From NCBI GenBank assembly GCA_017745075.1, contig JAGIAD010000029.1, positions 186,001 to 250,000 of the forward strand: a stretch of DNA of 64,000 nt, read 5' to 3'. The translations under genes and the position numbers were made by a program. The stretch comes from Sphingobacteriaceae bacterium. GTDB lineage: Bacteria > Bacteroidota > Bacteroidia > Sphingobacteriales > Sphingobacteriaceae. Numbering within the stretch: position 1 is the first letter of the stretch; each line of letters opens with the position of its first letter. This document shows positions 16,092 to 53,753 of the stretch, in pieces. The notes beneath the pieces were generated by a model. It saw only the letters and a program-made list of their open reading frames with translations. It searched no databases and was not told where the DNA came from.

Positions 16092-17687
16092 TTAACATAA
16101 TTTTAACGCTTCGTGTCTGCTTTTTGACACTTTTGTCAGTTCGAATTGCTTAAAATTCTCTTCGAAGGCATCAGATAGTTGATAGGCCTTTAAAAAATAT
16201 TCTTCCTGGTTATCCCATGTTTTAGAAGGATCTAAAATATCGCTTGGAACACCCGGGCAATTTAGCGGCATCATCAATTTAAATACATGGTGCTGTTTGT
16301 AATGGTTGTGGTTTAAACTGCCGTTCAAAGCTGCTTTGATCATGGCGCGTGTATAGCTTAATTTCATCCTTTTACCCACACCATAGGCTCCCCCGGTCCA
16401 TCCCGTATTGACCAACCAAACGTTTACTTCGTGCTTTTTCATCTTCTCGCCCAATAAAGCTGCATATTTAGAAGGATGCAATGGCAGGAAAGCTTTGCCA
16501 AAGCAAGCTGAAAAAGTGAGTTGTGGCTCGGTAACCCCAGCCTCTGTTCCGGCAACTTTTGCGGTATAACCGCTCATAAAGTGAAACATGGCCTGTTCAA
16601 CACTTAATTTGGAAATGGGCGGCAGCACGCCAAATGCATCAGCTGTAAGGAAAAAAATATTTTTTGGCACCGCTGCAACAGAGGGCAGGATGGCATTATC
16701 AATATAATCTATAGGATAAGCAACGCGCGTATTTTCCGTTTTATCAATGTTTGAGTAATCAACATCTTTTGTTCCCGGGAAGAAGTTGATGTTTTCTAGT
16801 AGTGAGCCAAATTTAATCGCTTTAAATATCTGGGGTTCTTTTTCCTCTGTCAAATCAACACATTTTGCATAACAGCCGCCCTCAAAGTTGAATACAGAAT
16901 CGTTACCCCAACCATGTTCATCATCGCCGATTAAACCACGTTCAGGATCGGCAGACAAAGTGGTTTTGCCTGTTCCGGACAAGCCAAAAAATATGGCCGT
17001 ATCTCCGTTTTTACCCACATTGGCCGAACAATGCATGGAAAGCGTATTTTTATATACAGGAAGGATAAAGTTCAGCACAGAAAATATTCCTTTTTTGATC
17101 TCTCCGGTATAGCCTGTACCCCCTATAAGGATCATTTTCCTTGTAAAATTGATAATGGAGAAATTTCCCTGACGGGTGCCATCCACAGCTGGATCGGCCA
17201 TAAAACCCGGCGCAGCAATGATTGTCCATTCGGGCATATCACCCAGATCATCTTCTTTTGGGCGGATAAATAAATGATGAGCAAAAAGATTCTGATAAGC
17301 CGTTTCGGTAATTACGCGGATGGAAATCGAATAATCCGGGTCGGCGCACGCTGAAGAGTCGCGCACGTAAATTGTTTTGTTACCAAGATAATTGGTAAGC
17401 TTACCATATAACTGATCGAATTTTTCAGGGCTGATTTTAATGTTTACATCACCCCACCAAACCTGATCTTCAGTGATATCGTCGCACACGATAAAACGGT
17501 CTTTAGGCGAACGTCCGGTAAATTTCCCTGTATCAATAGCCAGTGCACCGGATGCGGCCATGGTACCTTCATTATTTAATAAGGCTTCATCAATCAACTC
17601 CCCTGGAGATAACTGGTACTTTACAGCAATGTTCCCGCCGAGATTTAAATAGCTTAAATCTGGCGCTTGCAGTTTCTTTTTGCTCAT
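16092..17687 (-). CDS. pckA: Phosphoenolpyruvate carboxykinase (ATP)
   Basis: Converts oxaloacetate and ATP to phosphoenolpyruvate and CO2, the entry to gluconeogenesis, in the cytoplasm. The 531-residue sequence carries the PEPCK-specific P-loop and metal site in GLSGTGKTTLSADPERGLIG near residue 237, the TGRSPKDRF substrate loop near 55, and the adenine-binding NTGWTGGAYGVGKRM near 424. Size and motifs fit the ATP-dependent class, not the GTP class. It is monocistronic, with its own -7 box upstream and terminator downstream. Confidence 0.97.
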   Translation of the reverse strand: MSKKKLQAPDLSYLNLGGNIAVKYQLSPGELIDEALLNNEGTMAASGALAIDTGKFTGRSPKDRFIVCDDITEDQVWWGDVNIKISPEKFDQLYGKLTNYLGNKTIYVRDSSACADPDYSISIRVITETAYQNLFAHHLFIRPKEDDLGDMPEWTIIAAPGFMADPAVDGTRQGNFSIINFTRKMILIGGTGYTGEIKKGIFSVLNFILPVYKNTLSMHCSANVGKNGDTAIFFGLSGTGKTTLSADPERGLIGDDEHGWGNDSVFNFEGGCYAKCVDLTEEKEPQIFKAIKFGSLLENINFFPGTKDVDYSNIDKTENTRVAYPIDYIDNAILPSVAAVPKNIFFLTADAFGVLPPISKLSVEQAMFHFMSGYTAKVAGTEAGVTEPQLTFSACFGKAFLPLHPSKYAALLGEKMKKHEVNVWLVNTGWTGGAYGVGKRMKLSYTRAMIKAALNGSLNHNHYKQHHVFKLMMPLNCPGVPSDILDPSKTWDNQEEYFLKAYQLSDAFEENFKQFELTKVSKSRHEALKLC

Positions 17688-17709
17688 AACAATAAGTTAG
17701 TTAGTGCAG

Positions 17710-17717
17710 CAAAGGTA
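17710..17717 (-). promoter_or_regulatory. -7 promoter box of pckA
   Basis: Minus-strand TACCTTTG, a match to TAnnTTTG, ends 22 bases before the pckA start codon. The -33 element is not convincing: the nearest TTTG is only 15 bases away. Confidence 0.55.
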
Positions 17718-18134
17718 AAGACTTATCTTTTACAAAAACGAGTTTTAAAAAGTAATTTTTTACATATTGTAGCAAATACACTATGATTTAAATAGCTTAT
17801 TACCAATGAATTAAATACTTATTTTGAATGTAAAAAAAATTAAAAATATACACTAAGTAAACCTATTTTACAGATAAGAAGACCGGCTATCATCCAGTAC
17901 TATAGTAAACTTATTTAAAAGCAACCTCAGGGATGTACTAGTGGGGGCATAACCTCAGTATCTTTTCGAATAAAAAGCAGAGGCATTACGTACATTATAT
18001 AAACTGAGATGGAAAAGTTATCGTAAAGCCTCTTATCCCATCTTGCAGGAAATACTCCGAAAGGAAGAAGGAATATGGCTATTTCATTTGTTTAAACGTT
18101 TTAATAGAAATTTCGAAATAAAAATTAAAAAACA
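17718..18134. other. Intergenic region between pckA and the thr leader
   Basis: About 420 bases without a supported gene. The first 150 bases are strongly A/T-rich. From about 17880 to 18040 the sequence is more balanced and contains scattered CCTCAG words but no clear fold, reading frame or known motif. The plus-strand frame opening at 18043 is discussed with the leader peptide. Confidence 0.5.
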
Positions 18135-18167
18135 TTTGCATTTTAAAAAAATAATCTCCTACTTTAC
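18135..18167 (+). promoter_or_regulatory. Candidate promoter of the thr operon
   Basis: TTTG (18135-18138), 21 bases, TACTTTAC (18160-18167). This approximates the Bacteroidota consensus and would start transcription about 15-20 bases before the leader peptide. Confidence 0.5.
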
Positions 18168-18189
18168 AGTGTACAAAGTACACCAAGTA

Positions 18190-18258
18190 ATGACAAATTT
18201 TAACACTTCAATTATTTCAACAATTATTATTACCACCGGTATAAACCAGCGGGACTAA
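18190..18258 (+). CDS. thrL: Threonine-operon leader peptide
   Basis: A 22-codon frame in which 11 residues are Thr (5) or Ile (6), concentrated in codons 6-18 (TSIISTIIITTGI). The composition and even the ITTG word resemble the E. coli thr leader, although the flanks differ. The ATG follows a plausible promoter by about 25 bases, and a strong terminator begins 36 bases after its stop. ThrA, ThrB and ThrC are encoded downstream. Slow decoding of Thr or Ile codons would hold the ribosome upstream of the element CGGGAC (18250-18255), leaving it free to pair with the terminator arm. The peptide itself probably has no function. Confidence 0.8.
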   Translation: MTNFNTSIISTIIITTGINQRD

Positions 18259-18327
18259 TTTGTTGTAATTGAAAAAACATAAAAAACACAAAGAGCGTCC
18301 CGATAAAAGTCGGGACGCTTTTTTTTT
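18250..18327 (+). promoter_or_regulatory. Transcription attenuator of thrABC
   Basis: CGGGAC at 18250-18255, inside the last two codons before the leader stop, is complementary to GTCCCG at 18297-18302 in the left arm of the terminator. The antiterminator (18250-18302) and the terminator (18294-18319) therefore exclude each other, as in classical amino-acid attenuation. Confidence 0.7.
18294..18327 (+). terminator. Attenuator terminator upstream of thrA
   Basis: Perfect 10-bp stem AGCGTCCCGA/TCGGGACGCT with a 6-base loop, then a run of T from 18319 to 18327. It stands before, not after, a gene in its own direction, which marks it as an attenuator. Confidence 0.92.
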
Positions 18328-18410
18328 AATCCATGCTGAATGAAACCGTACAAACGAGCATTAAACCACAGATCGGTACGGCAACAGACAGTTAAACCCA
18401 ATATAGACTA

Positions 18411-20864
18411 ATGAAAGTACTCAAATTCGGCGGCACATCCGTAGGTTCGGCCGAGAACATTAAAACCCTCTTACGCCTGGTTGGCGAAGAAAAACAGAAG
18501 AACAATCCGGTAGTTGTATTATCGGCAATGAGCGGTGTAACCAATTTGCTAACTGATATGGCCGAAAAGGCCGAACGGGGCGAAGATTACGATGCACATT
18601 TAAAAGAAATCGAGGCCAAACACTTTGCCGTGATCCGCACTTTGTTGCCAGCAGCGGCGCAAAACCCTGTATTTACACGTTTAAAGATCTTTTTTAACGA
18701 ATTGGAAGACCTGTTGCAGGCTGTAACCAATCTGCGCGAACTAAGTTTACAGACAAAGGATCAGATTATAAGTTATGGTGAGCGCTGTTCTACTTTTATG
18801 ATCAGCCACATTGCTTCGCAAAGCTTCGATAATGCACTTTTTGTAAACGGGTCGGAGCTGATTAAAACCGATAGTAATTTTGGACAGGCAAAGGTTGATA
18901 CTGAACTTACTGAAATGCTGATCAACAATTTTTACCAGGAAAACAGTAATAAGGTGCTTTTTGTAACAGGCTTTATTGCCAGTAATATGGCCGGCAGGGT
19001 AACCACCCTGGGCCGCGGCGGATCTGACTATACTGCAGCTGTTTGGGGCGCTGCCTTAAATGCTGAAGAAATAGAAATCTGGACTGATGTAAACGGTATG
19101 ATGACTGCCGACCCTCGGATCGTAAAAAAAGCTTTCTCTTTACCAGAGTTGAGCTATACTGAGGCCATGGAACTGAGTTATTTTGGAGCGAAAGTAATTT
19201 ATCCGCCAACCATGATACCAGCTTTCATGAAAAAAATCCCGATTGTCATTAAAAATACTTTCGAACCAGATTTTGCCGGAACCTATATCAAAAGTGATGT
19301 TAGATCATCAAGCCTCCCAATTAAAGGCATTTCATCTATTGATCACATCAGTATCATCAACCTTAGCGGTAGTGGCATGGTGGGTAAAGCTGGTTTTAGC
19401 GGCCGCTTATTCTCGCTACTCTCTCGCGAGCAGATCAACGTGGTATTGATTACACAATCATCATCAGAACACAGCATTACTTTCGCAGTTAAACCAACAG
19501 ATGCTGCACAGGCCATTTCCCTGATCAAAAAGGAATTTGAACTCGAATTGGACGCGAAGAAGCTTGAATTACCGGAAGTTGAAAATAACCTGGCTGTTTT
19601 GGCCATAGTAGGCGAAAACATGAAACGTACCCCGGGTATGAGCGGTCGTTTGTTCAACGCACTTGGCCGTAATGGTATCAACGTAAGGGCCATTGCGCAG
19701 GGGTCTTCAGAATACAATATTTCGGTTATTATCAGTAAAGACGATTTATCAAAAGCTGTAAATGCGGTTCACGATGCTTTTTTTACCGACCTGAAAAGAA
19801 CCTTGAACATCTTTTGCCTGGGAACAGGAAATATTGGCAAAACCCTATTCAACCAGTTAAAAGAGCAAATGCCTTTCCTTGCGGCCAATAACGATCTTCA
19901 GGTAAAGGTAACCGGAATAAGCAATACACGTAAAATGATTTTCAACGCAGATGGCTTATCGCTCGATAGCTGGGAAGCAGAATTAGCTGATCAGGGCGAA
20001 CCGGCCAACCTGGCCGAATTTGTGGCTAAAATGAAAGCCATGAACCTGCCCAACTGTGTTTTTGTTGATAATACCGCAGCTGAAGCGCCAATTGAATTTT
20101 ACCAGGGCATATTCGAAAGCAGTATTTCGGTAGTAACCTGTAACAAAAAAGGTAATTCGGCCGATTTTGCCCAATACAAATCGTTTAAAGATACTGCACG
20201 AAAATTCGGGGTAGATTTTTATTACGAAACCAATGTGGGCGCCGGCCTGCCAATTATCCGTACCTTAAAAGAATTAATGATGAGTGGCGATAAAGTGGCG
20301 CGTATTGAAGCCATACTATCGGGAACCATTTCTTACATCTTCAATAATTTTAAGGGTGAAGCCGGATTTTACGAAACAGTAAAGGAAGCACAGGAACTCG
20401 GTTATACCGAACCTGATCCGCGTGATGATTTAAACGGCAAAGACTTTATGCGCAAAATGCTGATCCTGGCACGCGATGCGGGGTATCCTTTAGAAGCCAG
20501 CGATGTAAAAATCGACAATATTTTACCAGATGCCTGTTTAAATGCAACATCAGTAGAAGATTTTTATTCAGAATTACAGGCTAATGCGACTTACTTTGAA
20601 GATCTGAAAAATACCGCCGCTAAGGATGGTAAGGTTTTACGCTATATCGGCAAACTGGAAAACGGAAATGTAGAAATCAGCTTGCAGATGGTAGATGATA
20701 GTCATCCTTTCTTTATGCTCTCTGGAAGTGATAACATTATTTCTTTCACCACCGATCGTTATAAATCGCGCCCATTAGTGGTAAAGGGCCCGGGTGCTGG
20801 AGCAGAAGTTACAGCAGCGGGTGTTTTTGCCGATATCATTAACGTAGGAACTTTGAGCAATTAG
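18411..20864 (+). CDS. thrA: Bifunctional aspartokinase / homoserine dehydrogenase
   Basis: Fusion enzyme performing the first and third steps from aspartate to threonine and methionine. The aspartokinase half starts with KFGGTSVGSAENI and extends to about residue 290. Two ACT regulatory domains follow (about 315-460, with VGKAGFSGRLFSLLS and PGMSGRLFNALGRNGINVRAIAQGSSE). The homoserine dehydrogenase half begins with the Rossmann motif LGTGNIGKTLFNQL near 467 and contains NVGAGLPIIRTLKELMMSGDK near 612. The length of 817 residues is standard for ThrA. Regulation by attenuation is indicated upstream. thrB and thrC follow. Confidence 0.97.
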   Translation: MKVLKFGGTSVGSAENIKTLLRLVGEEKQKNNPVVVLSAMSGVTNLLTDMAEKAERGEDYDAHLKEIEAKHFAVIRTLLPAAAQNPVFTRLKIFFNELEDLLQAVTNLRELSLQTKDQIISYGERCSTFMISHIASQSFDNALFVNGSELIKTDSNFGQAKVDTELTEMLINNFYQENSNKVLFVTGFIASNMAGRVTTLGRGGSDYTAAVWGAALNAEEIEIWTDVNGMMTADPRIVKKAFSLPELSYTEAMELSYFGAKVIYPPTMIPAFMKKIPIVIKNTFEPDFAGTYIKSDVRSSSLPIKGISSIDHISIINLSGSGMVGKAGFSGRLFSLLSREQINVVLITQSSSEHSITFAVKPTDAAQAISLIKKEFELELDAKKLELPEVENNLAVLAIVGENMKRTPGMSGRLFNALGRNGINVRAIAQGSSEYNISVIISKDDLSKAVNAVHDAFFTDLKRTLNIFCLGTGNIGKTLFNQLKEQMPFLAANNDLQVKVTGISNTRKMIFNADGLSLDSWEAELADQGEPANLAEFVAKMKAMNLPNCVFVDNTAAEAPIEFYQGIFESSISVVTCNKKGNSADFAQYKSFKDTARKFGVDFYYETNVGAGLPIIRTLKELMMSGDKVARIEAILSGTISYIFNNFKGEAGFYETVKEAQELGYTEPDPRDDLNGKDFMRKMLILARDAGYPLEASDVKIDNILPDACLNATSVEDFYSELQANATYFEDLKNTAAKDGKVLRYIGKLENGNVEISLQMVDDSHPFFMLSGSDNIISFTTDRYKSRPLVVKGPGAGAEVTAAGVFADIINVGTLSN

Positions 20865-20868
20865 AGAT

Positions 20869-21321
20869 ATGGATACAATTTTAGCACAAAAAAATGAAAT
20901 CATATACCTGGTAAATCAGGCGATGATTGATTTTGAAAACATTAGTGAAGCGGACTGGAATAATAAACCACAACCACACAAGTGGTCAAAAAAGGAACTG
21001 CTGGGTCATTTGATTGATAGTGCATCCAATAACATCCGCCGCCTAATTGTTGGTCAATACGAGCAAGGGGTTAAAATCGTTTACCAACAGGATGAGTGGG
21101 TAGCCTATCAAAATTACCAGGCTGCTGATTTTGCAGAAATAAAAACCCTTTGGAAACTTTCGAATGACCAGATTTGCCGGGTTATTGAAAATATCCCTTC
21201 AGAAAAACTGCAAAATACCTGCGATACCGGAAAAGGAAAGACAGAGCTGCACAGCCTTTCCTATTTTATTGAAGATTATGTTGTGCATTTAAAATATCAT
21301 TTAAACCAAATCACTGCTTAA
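20869..21321 (+). CDS. DinB-superfamily putative metal-binding protein in the thr operon
   Basis: A 150-residue four-helix protein of the DinB/YfiT superfamily. The likely metal-binding histidines are H47 (ELLGHLIDSA), H140 and H144 (YVVHLKYH). Relatives include thiol-dependent transferases and many proteins of unknown role. It starts four bases after the thrA stop and ends 22 bases before thrB, so it is surely cotranscribed with threonine biosynthesis, but no reaction in that pathway is missing. The function is unknown. Confidence 0.82.
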   Translation: MDTILAQKNEIIYLVNQAMIDFENISEADWNNKPQPHKWSKKELLGHLIDSASNNIRRLIVGQYEQGVKIVYQQDEWVAYQNYQAADFAEIKTLWKLSNDQICRVIENIPSEKLQNTCDTGKGKTELHSLSYFIEDYVVHLKYHLNQITA

Positions 21322-21343: not shown

Positions 21344-22276
21344 ATGAAAAATAGTATAAAAGTTTTCGCACCAGCCACTGTTGCCAACGTAGTTTGTGGT
21401 TTCGATGTACTGGGATTTGCCGTTAATGAACCTGGCGATGAAGTTGAAATGCGTTTCACCGATACACCTGGCGTGGTGATTAAAAGAATTACCGGCGATG
21501 ATGGTCGTTTGCCTTTAGATGCTGCCAAAAACACTGTTAGTGCCAGCGTACAGCACTACCTGAAACACGTAAACCGTTTAGATGTAGGTGTAGAAATTGA
21601 ACTGCATAAAAAGATGCCTATTGGTAGTGGCTTAGGATCGAGTTCGGCGAGTACAGTTGCCGGGTTATTTGCCATAAACAAATTAATGGGCGATTTGCTG
21701 ACCACCAAAGAACTGGTTCCATTTGCCATGAAAGGCGAAGAACTGGCCTGTGGTTATGGTCATGCCGATAATGTTGCCCCTGCTTTACTTGGCGGCTTTG
21801 TATTGGTAAGAAGCTATGAACCATTGGATGTAATTTCTTTGCCTACACCTGCAGGCATGTATGCGGCAATCGTTTATCCTGAGGTAGATGTGCCGACCAA
21901 AGATGCCCGCCAGATGATCCGCAATAAAGTATCGTTAAAAGATGCGGTTACGCAATGGGGAAATGTGGCCGGACTGGTAAGCGGCTTGTTTATGAGCGAT
22001 TTTGATTTGATCGGGAGGAGCATGAAAGATGTACTGGTAGAGCCAACACGATCGATCTTAATCCCCGGCTTTGAAGAAATGAGAACGCTGGCCATGGAAA
22101 ATGGTGCCATCGGTTTCGGAATTTCAGGATCTGGGCCATCAGTTTTCGCCTTAACCAAAGATGAAGAAACTGCCCGGAAAATCACAAAATCACAACAACA
22201 ACATTTACATAAAATCAATATTAACAGCAAAGCTTTTGTTTCTCCGGTAAATGCGGAAGGACCCAAAGTAATGTAA
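21344..22276 (+). CDS. thrB: Homoserine kinase
   Basis: GHMP-family kinase that phosphorylates homoserine with ATP, the fourth step of threonine synthesis. The 310-residue sequence opens with VFAPATVANVVCGFDVLGFAV, has the ATP-binding loop PIGSGLGSSSASTVAG near residue 92 and the third GHMP motif GAIGFGISGSGPSVFAL near 250. It is the third structural gene of the thr operon. Its TAA stop is already inside the repeat that fills the gap to thrC. Confidence 0.97.
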   Translation: MKNSIKVFAPATVANVVCGFDVLGFAVNEPGDEVEMRFTDTPGVVIKRITGDDGRLPLDAAKNTVSASVQHYLKHVNRLDVGVEIELHKKMPIGSGLGSSSASTVAGLFAINKLMGDLLTTKELVPFAMKGEELACGYGHADNVAPALLGGFVLVRSYEPLDVISLPTPAGMYAAIVYPEVDVPTKDARQMIRNKVSLKDAVTQWGNVAGLVSGLFMSDFDLIGRSMKDVLVEPTRSILIPGFEEMRTLAMENGAIGFGISGSGPSVFALTKDEETARKITKSQQQHLHKININSKAFVSPVNAEGPKVM

Positions 22277-22340: not shown

Positions 22341-23648
22341 ATGAAACTATACTCAACCAACAATAAAGATTTACGTGTTTCTTTTAAAGAAGCCGTTTTT
22401 AACAGCATGCCGCAGGATAAAGGTTTATATATGCCTGTTGAAATTCCACAGCTGGATGCTGCTTTTATCGAAAATATTGAACAGTACACTTTGCCCGAAA
22501 TTGCATATCAGATAGCTTCTGCGCTGCTGAAAGATGAAATTCCGGCCGACGATTTAAAGGCCCTTGTAGCTGATGCCATTAATTTTGAAGCACCAGCCGT
22601 TAAATTAGATGATAAAACCTTCGTTTTAGAACTTTTTCATGGCCCATCTTTGGCCTTTAAAGATTTTGGTGCCCGTTTTATGAGCCGAGTAATGGCCTAT
22701 TTCTTAAAAGATGGCGAACAACTCTTAGATGTCCTGGTAGCCACTTCAGGTGATACCGGTGGTGCAGTTGCTTTAGGGTTCTTAGGTGTACCCAATACCC
22801 GGGTTACGATACTGTATCCGGAAGAGAAAGTGAGTCCGATACAAGAGCTGCAGTTAACCACAAACGGAGAAAATATCCGCGCCATTGAGGTTAAAGGAAC
22901 TTTTGACGATTGCCAGGCTTTGGTAAAGCAGGCTTTTGCCGATGCTGAGCTGAACGCTAAATTCCGCCTTACCTCAGCCAACTCGATTAATATTTCGAGG
23001 TTAATCCCGCAAACGTTCTATTATTTCAACACTTACGCACAGCTGAAAAAACAAGGATTCAGTGATGTAGTTTTCTCAGTACCAAGCGGAAACTTCGGAA
23101 ATATTGGAGCAGGTTTACTGGCTTACAAACTGGGCTTACCTGTAAAACAGTTTATTGCCGCAACTAATGTTAACGACACAGTTCCCCGCTTTTTAGCCAC
23201 CGGTAACTATGAAACCAAACCTTCTAAACAAACGTATTCAAACGCGATGGATGTTGGCGCACCAAGCAACTGGGTAAGGATTATGGATTTGTTTAACCAG
23301 GATGTTGAAGCTTTGAAGAAAGTGGTTACCGCCTATCGTTTTACTGACGAAGAAACGCTGGCCGGAATCAAGGCAATCGACAATCAGTTTAATTATGTAG
23401 CCTGCCCGCATACTGCCATTGCCTATTTAGCAGTAGAAAAATATAGAAATGAAAACCCTGCAGATGAAAGTGCTGCTGTATTTTTATCTACAGCGCATGC
23501 CTGTAAATTCCCAGATATCTTCCCGAAAGAGATTGCAGCAAAAATCGAAATACCGGAGCAGGTTACCGCTTTGGAAAACAAACCTAAACAGGCCGACCAG
23601 TTAGATGTGGATTTTGAAGGGTTTAAAGCTTACTTGCTGAAAGGGTAG
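22341..23648 (+). CDS. thrC: Threonine synthase
   Basis: PLP enzyme converting O-phosphohomoserine to threonine, the last step of the pathway. At 435 residues it belongs to the longer class. Visible motifs are HGPSLAFKDFGARFMSRV near residue 95 with the PLP lysine, ATSGDTGGAVALGFLG near 130, and SVPSGNFGNIGAGLLAYKLG near 252 that binds the cofactor phosphate. It closes the thrA-dinB-thrB-thrC operon. No clear terminator follows, but REP-like hairpins do. Confidence 0.97.
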   Translation: MKLYSTNNKDLRVSFKEAVFNSMPQDKGLYMPVEIPQLDAAFIENIEQYTLPEIAYQIASALLKDEIPADDLKALVADAINFEAPAVKLDDKTFVLELFHGPSLAFKDFGARFMSRVMAYFLKDGEQLLDVLVATSGDTGGAVALGFLGVPNTRVTILYPEEKVSPIQELQLTTNGENIRAIEVKGTFDDCQALVKQAFADAELNAKFRLTSANSINISRLIPQTFYYFNTYAQLKKQGFSDVVFSVPSGNFGNIGAGLLAYKLGLPVKQFIAATNVNDTVPRFLATGNYETKPSKQTYSNAMDVGAPSNWVRIMDLFNQDVEALKKVVTAYRFTDEETLAGIKAIDNQFNYVACPHTAIAYLAVEKYRNENPADESAAVFLSTAHACKFPDIFPKEIAAKIEIPEQVTALENKPKQADQLDVDFEGFKAYLLKG

Positions 23649-31721: not shown

Positions 31722-31769
31722 AAAAAAAAGGCTTATTTAAAAAGTTGGCACGTGAATCGTAATCCTAAA

Positions 31770-31870
31770 CTTATCTGTTTCTGCTATTTGCAGAATAGAA
31801 TTTAGCACCTTGTAAGGTTACAGGTTGCTAAGACTTCGTTGGGTCTAATCCCTCCGTCTTTCTTAATAAG
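31770..31870 (-). promoter_or_regulatory. SAM-I (S-box) riboswitch controlling metH-metF
   Basis: Read on the minus strand, the segment has the ordered SAM-I core: CTTATTAAGA (5' P1), GGAGGGATTAGACCC, GAAGTCTTAGCAACC, then AAGGTGCTAAATTC, and closing AGATAAG (3' P1). These match the conserved S-adenosylmethionine aptamer positions. The metH start is 139 bases downstream. Between them I see a run of eight T (31729-31722 on the minus strand) but no convincing terminator stem just before it, so the expression platform is unclear. Confidence 0.93.
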
Positions 31871-31937
31871 CATACAAAAATGCAACAAAGCAACATCAAT
31901 TCCAAAAATTATCGCTTTGCAACCAAATAAAATTACA

Positions 31938-43486: not shown

Positions 43487-43546
43487 CATTCCAATTCGGA
43501 AACAGAGTTAAGGATTTAATTCAAGATAAAAACGAATTGTATAGAA

Positions 43547-43622
<76 letters not shown>

Positions 43623-43697
43623 ATTAGTTGGGAATTGAGAGTTTTTAGTTGGGAGTTCCTCCAAGCTAACGACTCCAAAGTCAAAACTTAGATTTAT

Positions 43698-43769
43698 GGC
43701 CCGTTCGTCTAGGGGTGAGGACGCCAGATTTTCATTCTGGAAACAGGGGTTCGATTCCCCTACGGGCTA
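43698..43769 (+). tRNA. tRNA-Glu (TTC), copy 1
   Basis: 72 bases without encoded CCA. Acceptor GGCCCGT/ACGGGCT, anticodon stem CCAGA/TCTGG with loop TTTTCAT giving anticodon TTC, T arm AGGGGTTCGATTCCCCT. Confidence 0.95.
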
Positions 43770-43797
43770 CAAATGGGAACCTATCCCAAACAGCACT

Positions 43798-53470: not shown

Positions 53471-53506
53471 CACTCCTTCAAACGGAGCGTTGAAGATAAG
53501 ATAAAG

Positions 53507-53582
<76 letters not shown>

Positions 53583-53657
53583 ATTAGTTGGGAGTTGAGC
53601 GTTTTTAGTTGGGAGTTACTCCAAGCTAAAGACTCCAAAGTCGAAACTTAAATTTAT

Positions 53658-53729
53658 GGCCCGTTCGTCTAGGGGTGAGGACGCCAGATTTTCATTCTGG
53701 AAACAGGGGTTCGATTCCCCTACGGGCTA
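53658..53729 (+). tRNA. tRNA-Glu (TTC), copy 2
   Basis: Identical over 72 bases to copy 1 at 43698-43769. Confidence 0.95.
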
Positions 53730-53753
53730 CAAAAATCAATGTCAAATGATGTC

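Follow-up and report, generated by a model that had tools for sequence, protein, structure and literature searches.

We conclude that the thr operon in this DNA is very probably preceded by a ribosome-mediated transcription attenuator for threonine (and isoleucine), like that of Escherichia coli thrL. The DNA, referred to here as the window, is a stretch of 64,000 nucleotides from a soil bacterium of the Sphingobacteriaceae with a genome of 5.83 Mb; judged by ThrA, the named organisms closest to it belong to Pedobacter (95% identity). The comparison of sequences revealed a Thr/Ile-rich short frame upstream of the matching biosynthetic operon, an intrinsic terminator between this leader and the first gene, and a candidate antiterminator that excludes the terminator and would be exposed by a stalled ribosome (shared GTCCCG, covariation, spacing, and folds). 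The original prediction had read the region as classical ribosome-mediated attenuation, and the parts, their conservation, their covariation, and their geometry support that reading; we infer from them that the promoter is used, that the leader is translated, that ribosomes stall and the switch operates, and how Thr and Ile compare in weight.

The promoter, leader frame, and terminator all sit between pckA and thrA, and the plus strand then carries thrA, a 150-aa ORF, thrB, and thrC in that order (Table 1). As predicted, thrA (assigned by NCBIfam) comes directly after the terminator, its start lying 83 nt past the T run. The 150-aa ORF scores 26.3 bits against NF009807, for which the cut-off is 160. 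Elsewhere, the window holds a SAM riboswitch on the minus strand at 31768-31872 (RF00162, 81.6 bits) and a 233-nt direct repeat at 43541-43773 and 53501-53733, with copies that are 97% identical, lie 9960 nt apart, and both carry tRNA-Met and tRNA-Glu genes.

Table 1. Features of the proposed thr attenuator region and the operon (positions within the window)
Feature	Position	Strand	Basis or remark
pckA	16092-17687	minus	transcribed away from the thr operon
Promoter -33 element TTTG, Bacteroidota type	18135-18138	plus	conserved pattern upstream of the leader
Promoter -7 element TACTTTAC	18160-18167	plus	compare TAnnTTTG, sigma-A -7 box, as given in part of PMC9723704
Small hairpin GTGTAC-AAA-GTACAC, expected transcript 5' end	18169-18183	plus	sequence; similar in many close relatives
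Leader peptide frame MTNFNTSIISTIIITTGINQRD (then stop), 22 codons	18190-18258	plus	sequence; Thr/Ile block conserved in relatives
Sensing block, leader Thr/Ile codons	18205-18237	plus	last Thr codon 18235-18237
Segment 1, 5' strand of hairpin enclosing antiterminator arm	18207-18229	plus	predicted fold
Segment 2, antiterminator 5' arm CGGGAC (codons Arg-Asp)	18250-18255	plus	complementary to 18297-18302
Segment 1 hairpin, 3' strand	18256-18273	plus	predicted fold
Antiterminator inner helix, 5' strand TTTGT	18259-18263	plus	fold of RNA free from 18249
Antiterminator inner helix, 3' strand ACAAA	18288-18292	plus	fold; weak family support
Intrinsic terminator	18290-18327	plus	stem 18290-18323, T run 18319-18327, -24.0 kcal/mol
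Segment 3 core GTCCCG, terminator left arm shared with antiterminator	18297-18302	plus	sequence, covariation, fold
thrA, bifunctional aspartate kinase/homoserine dehydrogenase I	18411-20864	plus	NCBIfam NF006959, 1043 bits, cut-off 726
150-aa ORF between thrA and thrB	20869-21321	plus	weak YfiT bacillithiol transferase likeness
thrB, homoserine kinase	21344-22276	plus	NF002288, 388 bits, cut-off 194
thrC, threonine synthase	22341-23648	plus	TIGR00260, 292 bits, cut-off 167

The leader frame is present as originally described, with 5 Thr and 6 Ile among its 22 codons. When the window's 500-nt upstream region was shuffled 500 times by mononucleotide, the density of this frame, at least 9 Thr/Ile in 11 residues, was never reached. 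Equally in place is CGGGAC, which overlaps the leader end and is complementary to GTCCCG in the left arm of the terminator. The terminator had been placed at 18294-18327 as a perfect hairpin: the perfection of the hairpin (15 pairs around a loop of 4) and the end of the T run at 18327 hold, while the start was 4 bases off, the stem beginning at 18290. A scan of 17690-18420 on both strands gave 4 terminator-like sites against 0.4 expected from shuffles, and of these this hairpin has the most pairs.

From these parts the following scheme can be proposed. Transcription would begin near 18173, and a ribosome following RNA polymerase would translate the leader of 22 codons. When Thr-tRNA (and Ile-tRNA) is ample, the ribosome would get to the stop codon at 18256 and cover the arm at 18250-18255; the terminator arms would then pair, and transcription would end at the T run near 18327. 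With scarce Thr-tRNA (or Ile-tRNA), the ribosome would stall within the Thr/Ile block and leave CGGGAC free to pair with the nascent GTCCCG, blocking the terminator and allowing thrA to be transcribed. If the leader were left untranslated, an internal hairpin would sequester CGGGAC, which would favor termination.

Predicted fold energies suit this scheme. The fold of 18135-18345 was calculated at -51.1 kcal/mol, compared with -28.0 kcal/mol (sd 3.5) for shuffled sequences (z -6.5; reached in 0 of 200). With no ribosome present, the leader hairpin (18172-18290) is predicted at -16.0 kcal/mol; once the left arm is included (to 18305), the prediction for the untranslated leader changes to the antiterminator (-16.2 kcal/mol). 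For RNA free from 18249 to 18305, as a stalled ribosome would leave it, the antiterminator is predicted at -12.4 kcal/mol. When the whole terminator is included (e.g., 18249-18330), the terminator fold wins in these predictions both for the stalled ribosome and for the untranslated leader. Because the antiterminator is thermodynamically the weaker of the two, it would have to win kinetically, by forming first, as the antiterminator does in other attenuators.

Upstream of the leader, the window has TTTG, 21 bases, and then the -7 element, which resembles the TAnnTTTG described as the Flavobacterium sigma-A -7 box in a portion of PMC9723704. Of 114 distinct loci, 87 have the pattern TTG-N19-23-TAnnTT(T/C/A) ahead of the leader, where shuffled sequences would give 7.6; the spacer is 21 in nearly all matches. 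In the window, we would accordingly place the transcription start near 18173. Matches to a sigma-70-type promoter were disregarded, as 4 were found against 2.9 expected. Since the pattern upstream of the leader is conserved, transcription most likely does not start solely downstream of the terminator, beyond 18330, as would be at odds with the original prediction.

We found ThrA matches in all 99 genus genomes, of which 97 were full-length (the weak, partial-type matches in the other 2 may be other aspartate kinases), and 65 of 81 family genomes had a match at E 1e-150 or better. Genus and family together gave 159 distinct thrA places, 156 with enough upstream DNA; L030, L044, and L397 were left out for short upstream sequence, and two duplicates had been removed from the first set (L001, the window's own place, equal to L004, and L100, equal to L093). 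A Thr/Ile-dense short frame (at least 7 Thr/Ile per 11 residues) lies upstream of thrA in 152 of the 156 regions, and an intrinsic terminator, scored with two slightly different scripts, in 140. The conservation of the frame in relatives that the original prediction called for is therefore seen in both sets, at 115 of 115 loci in the first and 37 of 41 analysable loci (of 42) in the second. In the first set, 98 loci reach at least 9 Thr/Ile in 11, and none of 580 shuffles, drawn from 29 of the 115 loci, reached the value of its own locus. The median leader has 5 Ile and 5 Thr codons (117 loci, duplicates included).

Terminators were scored at 112 of 115 first-set loci and at 28 of 41 in the second. 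Of the three first-set failures, L045 and L083 (N in the T run) are intact by eye and L120 is without a terminator; L121 passes by way of an AT-rich stem that we judged not credible. No leader was found at L379, L380, and L385, from genera g8 and g9 with divergent ThrA, and the frame at L389 holds 6 Thr/Ile, below the cut-off of 7. A leader without a recognisable terminator is present at L120, L121 (by reading), L360, L370, L371, L375, L377, and L390, and part of the members of g15, g16, g18, and g19 have no terminator. L120, L360, and L371 (genus g15) thus retain the Thr/Ile leader with no convincing terminator within the same family. On these sequence comparisons, the likeness of thr leaders within the Sphingobacteriaceae is conservation.

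How the leader varies distinguishes its two parts. Among 26 distinct 66-nt close-clade leaders (from 36 loci; the window's 69-nt frame lies outside this set), third positions are the most variable in codons 2-16 (11 variable sites, vs 3 and 5 at the other positions), and codons 17-21 show no third-position excess (2 sites, vs 3 and 3). Directly ahead of the arm, the block closes with Thr-Thr-Gly in 25 of these 26 leaders, as it does in the window. In the window, 12 nt separate the last Thr codon from CGGGAC; across 107 loci, the arm starts 9-17 nt past the last Thr codon in 97 (12 nt in 47), and in 104 it lies 8 to 27 nt ahead of the point where the stop codon ends. The arm occurs in all three reading frames (64, 28, and 15 loci), so the peptide tails differ (INQRG, RRK, GGR, EEG) and complementarity to the left arm is retained. 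With the arm's spacing to the last Thr codon kept and its frame free, the tail is held as RNA and the block as codons. By this geometry, stalling at the last Thr codon would keep the arm exposed, and in the window a ribosome that has come to the stop codon would mask it, as classical attenuation requires.

The tail and terminator arms fall into two main classes, CGGGRC/GTCCCG and GAGGAAGG/CCTTCCTC, which change together. Mean helix scores were 18.3 and 15.0 with a locus's own arm vs 13.0 and 11.1 with that of the other class (110 distinct loci). Over 69 non-redundant loci, own pairing scored 16.75 and the best of 5000 arm permutations 15.45; permuting within classes likewise reached the own score in 0 of 5000. 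The covarying arms that the original prediction named as support are thus found, within two limits: for 19 of the 69 loci, the pairing of the real tail is equalled by more than 1 of its 20 shuffles, so that single loci are not always convincing, and the permutations keep relatedness, so that the covariation may partly reflect a few old changes. Individual compensatory changes also occur, for example at L009, with CGGAAC/GTTCCG where relatives have CGGGGC/GTCCCG. The inner antiterminator helix is weakly supported in the family (89 loci; own score 10.44, permuted mean 10.03, matched by 61 of 5000 permutations). We used helix search and permutation because MAFFT displaces the right terminator arm between arm classes; the MAFFT alignment has 65 rows, the window and 64 of 103 passing loci. 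The window's locus enters that alignment, the class helix scores, and the spacing count; the helix-score permutations and inner-helix test omit it, as L004 had been merged into the dropped L001. The helix-score permutations do include its near relative L005, with identical arms. L045, L120, and L121, with odd or missing terminators, were left out of the spacing, permutation, and inner-helix counts.

Among 4227 Rfam families, RF00506 Thr_leader was the top match for 18100-18420, with a full-length match of 31.3 bits (E 0.00033) that stays under its gathering score of 55 bits. All 60 genus genomes searched match this model at E 0.1 or better and none above threshold; many of the listed matches lie away from thrA, and the best listed match in the window's genome is not the thr leader. 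Of 14 control genomes, 7 match, 1 of them above threshold. We regard the sub-threshold match as weak evidence and rejected it as proof, because the model also matches many terminator-like hairpins in genus and control genomes.

Several other readings of these data deserve consideration. The terminator could be an ordinary stop under no regulation, and the Thr/Ile frame could have arisen by chance in AT-rich DNA, in which AAT, ATT, and ACA codons are common; two more DNA matches to the terminator part in the genome mark it as a common type there. The shuffles of the window and of the 29 loci, the retention of the frame at every first-set locus, the conserved promoter pattern, and the covarying arms all speak against an accident, and pckA, being on the opposite strand, does not end at this hairpin, so we consider this reading very improbable. 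We think it just as improbable that the leader acts mainly by translational coupling or reinitiation, or as a functional small peptide, with termination uncontrolled. For several phyla, Bacteroidetes among them, PMC4833913 proposes short leader genes by which the translation of the gene that follows is increased; the peak given there for Bacteroidetes is 11-14 bp, whereas the leader end lies 152 nt from the thrA start with a perfect terminator between them, and it is the peptide tail that varies and shifts frame while the RNA complementarity stays.

A long and structured leader would also be expected if a metabolite, tRNA, or protein (riboswitch, T-box, or regulator) drove the terminator and the frame were coincidental. 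The Rfam matches of the region include no riboswitch or T-box family and are led by Thr_leader, and what is conserved is the codons of the block and, in the tail, the pairing capacity of the arm; such a leader strikes us as barely credible. The remaining reading keeps attenuation by leader translation and changes its details: the main signal might be charged Ile-tRNA or another tRNA, or Rho might assist termination. Ile is as frequent as Thr in these leaders, and many sampled Bacteroidota outside the family have a Thr leader without an intrinsic terminator, but Thr-Thr-Gly closes the block before the arm and an intrinsic terminator is present here, and we hold this variant to be improbable. 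Attenuation governed by threonine (and isoleucine) through the intrinsic terminator remains the reading that we prefer.

Outside the family, 215 genomes gave a match, from which we chose 60 loci by hand, roughly one or two for each genus. A frame with 7 or more Thr/Ile in 11 residues is present at 18 of the 60 loci; among these 18, only L155 has a clear intrinsic terminator by reading; L139 and L144 were flagged by the terminator script for what is actually a hairpin on the leader end, and L179 and L180 (f17) have no such Thr leader. In 21 loci hand-picked from the 60 for their Thr-rich leader ends, all 21 carry an ACCC...GGGT-type (ACCCC...GGGGT) hairpin on the leader end, matched by 23 of 2100 shuffles; the stop codon lies in or beside the hairpin, and 14 of the 21 have a CATAT-like box within 45 nt downstream. 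Terminator-less Thr leaders upstream of thrA include L129, L135, L136, L141, L144, L146, L149, L165, and L169. Within the Sphingobacteriaceae, the genus g5 loci L381-L384, with divergent ThrA, have a leader of the flavobacterial kind with the same leader-end hairpin and no terminator. It is possible, although we would not wager on it, that across the Bacteroidia the Thr/Ile leader has persisted and the switch that follows it has been exchanged, being a terminator and antiterminator in Sphingobacteriaceae and a leader-end hairpin in flavobacteria-like families and g5. If this is true, the leader-end hairpin form would be an undescribed control of an operon by a leader peptide, perhaps via Rho or translation.

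Other biosynthetic genes of the window's genome have leaders that are probably of the same kind and that we offer as leads. ilvD is preceded by MNINTNIISNLIIVISQKRGGNRCV (then stop) and a terminator (L264:1218-1343), with a tail GAGGTGG that pairs with the terminator's CCGCCTC; a scan of relatives found this form at 7 of 22 analysed loci (of 26 ilvD places), the others giving different short frames. hisG is preceded by MNLTLNHHLHLHHRR (then stop), and in relatives all 24 of 24 hisG loci have an upstream frame in which 3 or more of 10 residues are His. The His leader (NHHLHLHH-like) was seen at L265 (reverse complement), L318-L330, and L332-L336; Pedobacter hisG loci have a CATCGCC/GGCGATG-type hairpin on the leader end and no GC-rich terminator, and hisG loci of other families (L314-L317, L331) have a GC-rich terminator by script, fold, or eye. 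trpE is preceded by MINNIHTWLWQSNSKTDCAGCV (then stop) and a terminator, and in relatives a Trp leader was read before trpE at 17 of 22 analysed loci (of 24 places; 13 of the MINNIHTW kind, 4 others) and not at the other 5. A Trp-Leu-Trp leader with a terminator occurs at L266 (reverse complement), L337-L341, and L343-L345, and tail and arm differ together between L341 (GCGCAGG/CCTGCGT) and L266 (GCGCTGG/CCGGCGT).

The thr leader offers a complete, conserved, and covarying candidate attenuator in a phylum for which few sensors of this type have been documented. Should attenuation operate in Bacteroidota, a stalled ribosome could decide termination there only if transcription and translation are coupled closely enough, and the conserved thr leaders are a clear set of loci for testing this coupling. 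They come with a terminator-less variant as well. What interests us most is that, across the wider class, the same Thr leader is followed by such varied switches.

Leader-peptide attenuation is already known in the phylum by prediction, from reports on Flavobacterium and Bacteroides. A comparative study of attenuation by Lopatovskaya et al. (2010, Mol Biol 44:128) may list Bacteroidota cases already. A similar case in the same phylum is Flavobacterium psychrophilum, for which passages of PMC9723704 describe strong clues to leader-peptide attenuation upstream of amino-acid biosynthesis operons, conserved 5' elements without Rfam matches before pheA and hisG, and Bacteroidota promoters and translation starts that differ from those of E. 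coli; its main text has neither "threonine" nor "thrA", and where it bears on this subject it sets out no switching model. As excerpts of PMC7366714 put it, Bacteroides has sORFs reminiscent of attenuation leaders. The ilvB-II and ilvB-OMG motifs, in the relevant part of PMC10272879, are conserved uORFs in which the amino acids under regulation abound (for ilvB-OMG, threonine and the branched-chain amino acids), with attenuation predicted; they differ from the thr leader in lying upstream of ilvB, and ilvB-II comes from Corynebacterium. In the open-licence PMC literature we found no description of a Sphingobacteriaceae thr attenuator.

The original prediction had left the choice between conservation and convergence open. 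Within the family, conservation holds. Toward E. coli, the ThrA proteins are distant: the window's ThrA is 39% identical to that of E. coli, which shares 36-40% identity with every one of the 30 Bacteroidota ThrA in the comparison and falls outside a fully supported 12-row Sphingobacteriaceae-type clade in an unrooted tree of 31 rows, on a very long branch (L043 and L056, with upstream DNA only, were left out). With its one E. coli row, this tree gives no support to a recent transfer of the operon from gammaproteobacteria, and the likeness of the peptides (...ITTG...) would thus reflect convergence or very old inheritance. The resemblance to thrL of E. coli K-12 (NC_000913) extends to a short Thr/Ile leader, a GC-rich hairpin with a T run, a fused thrA, and thrB; by our reading of the sequence, thrL also has a G-rich tail that overlaps the leader end and could pair with the terminator's left arm, this tail arm lying about 7-8 nt past the last Thr codon compared with 12 nt in the window. 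The window differs from thrL in the sequences of the arms and leader, in its Bacteroidota-type promoter, and in the extra ORF between thrA and thrB.
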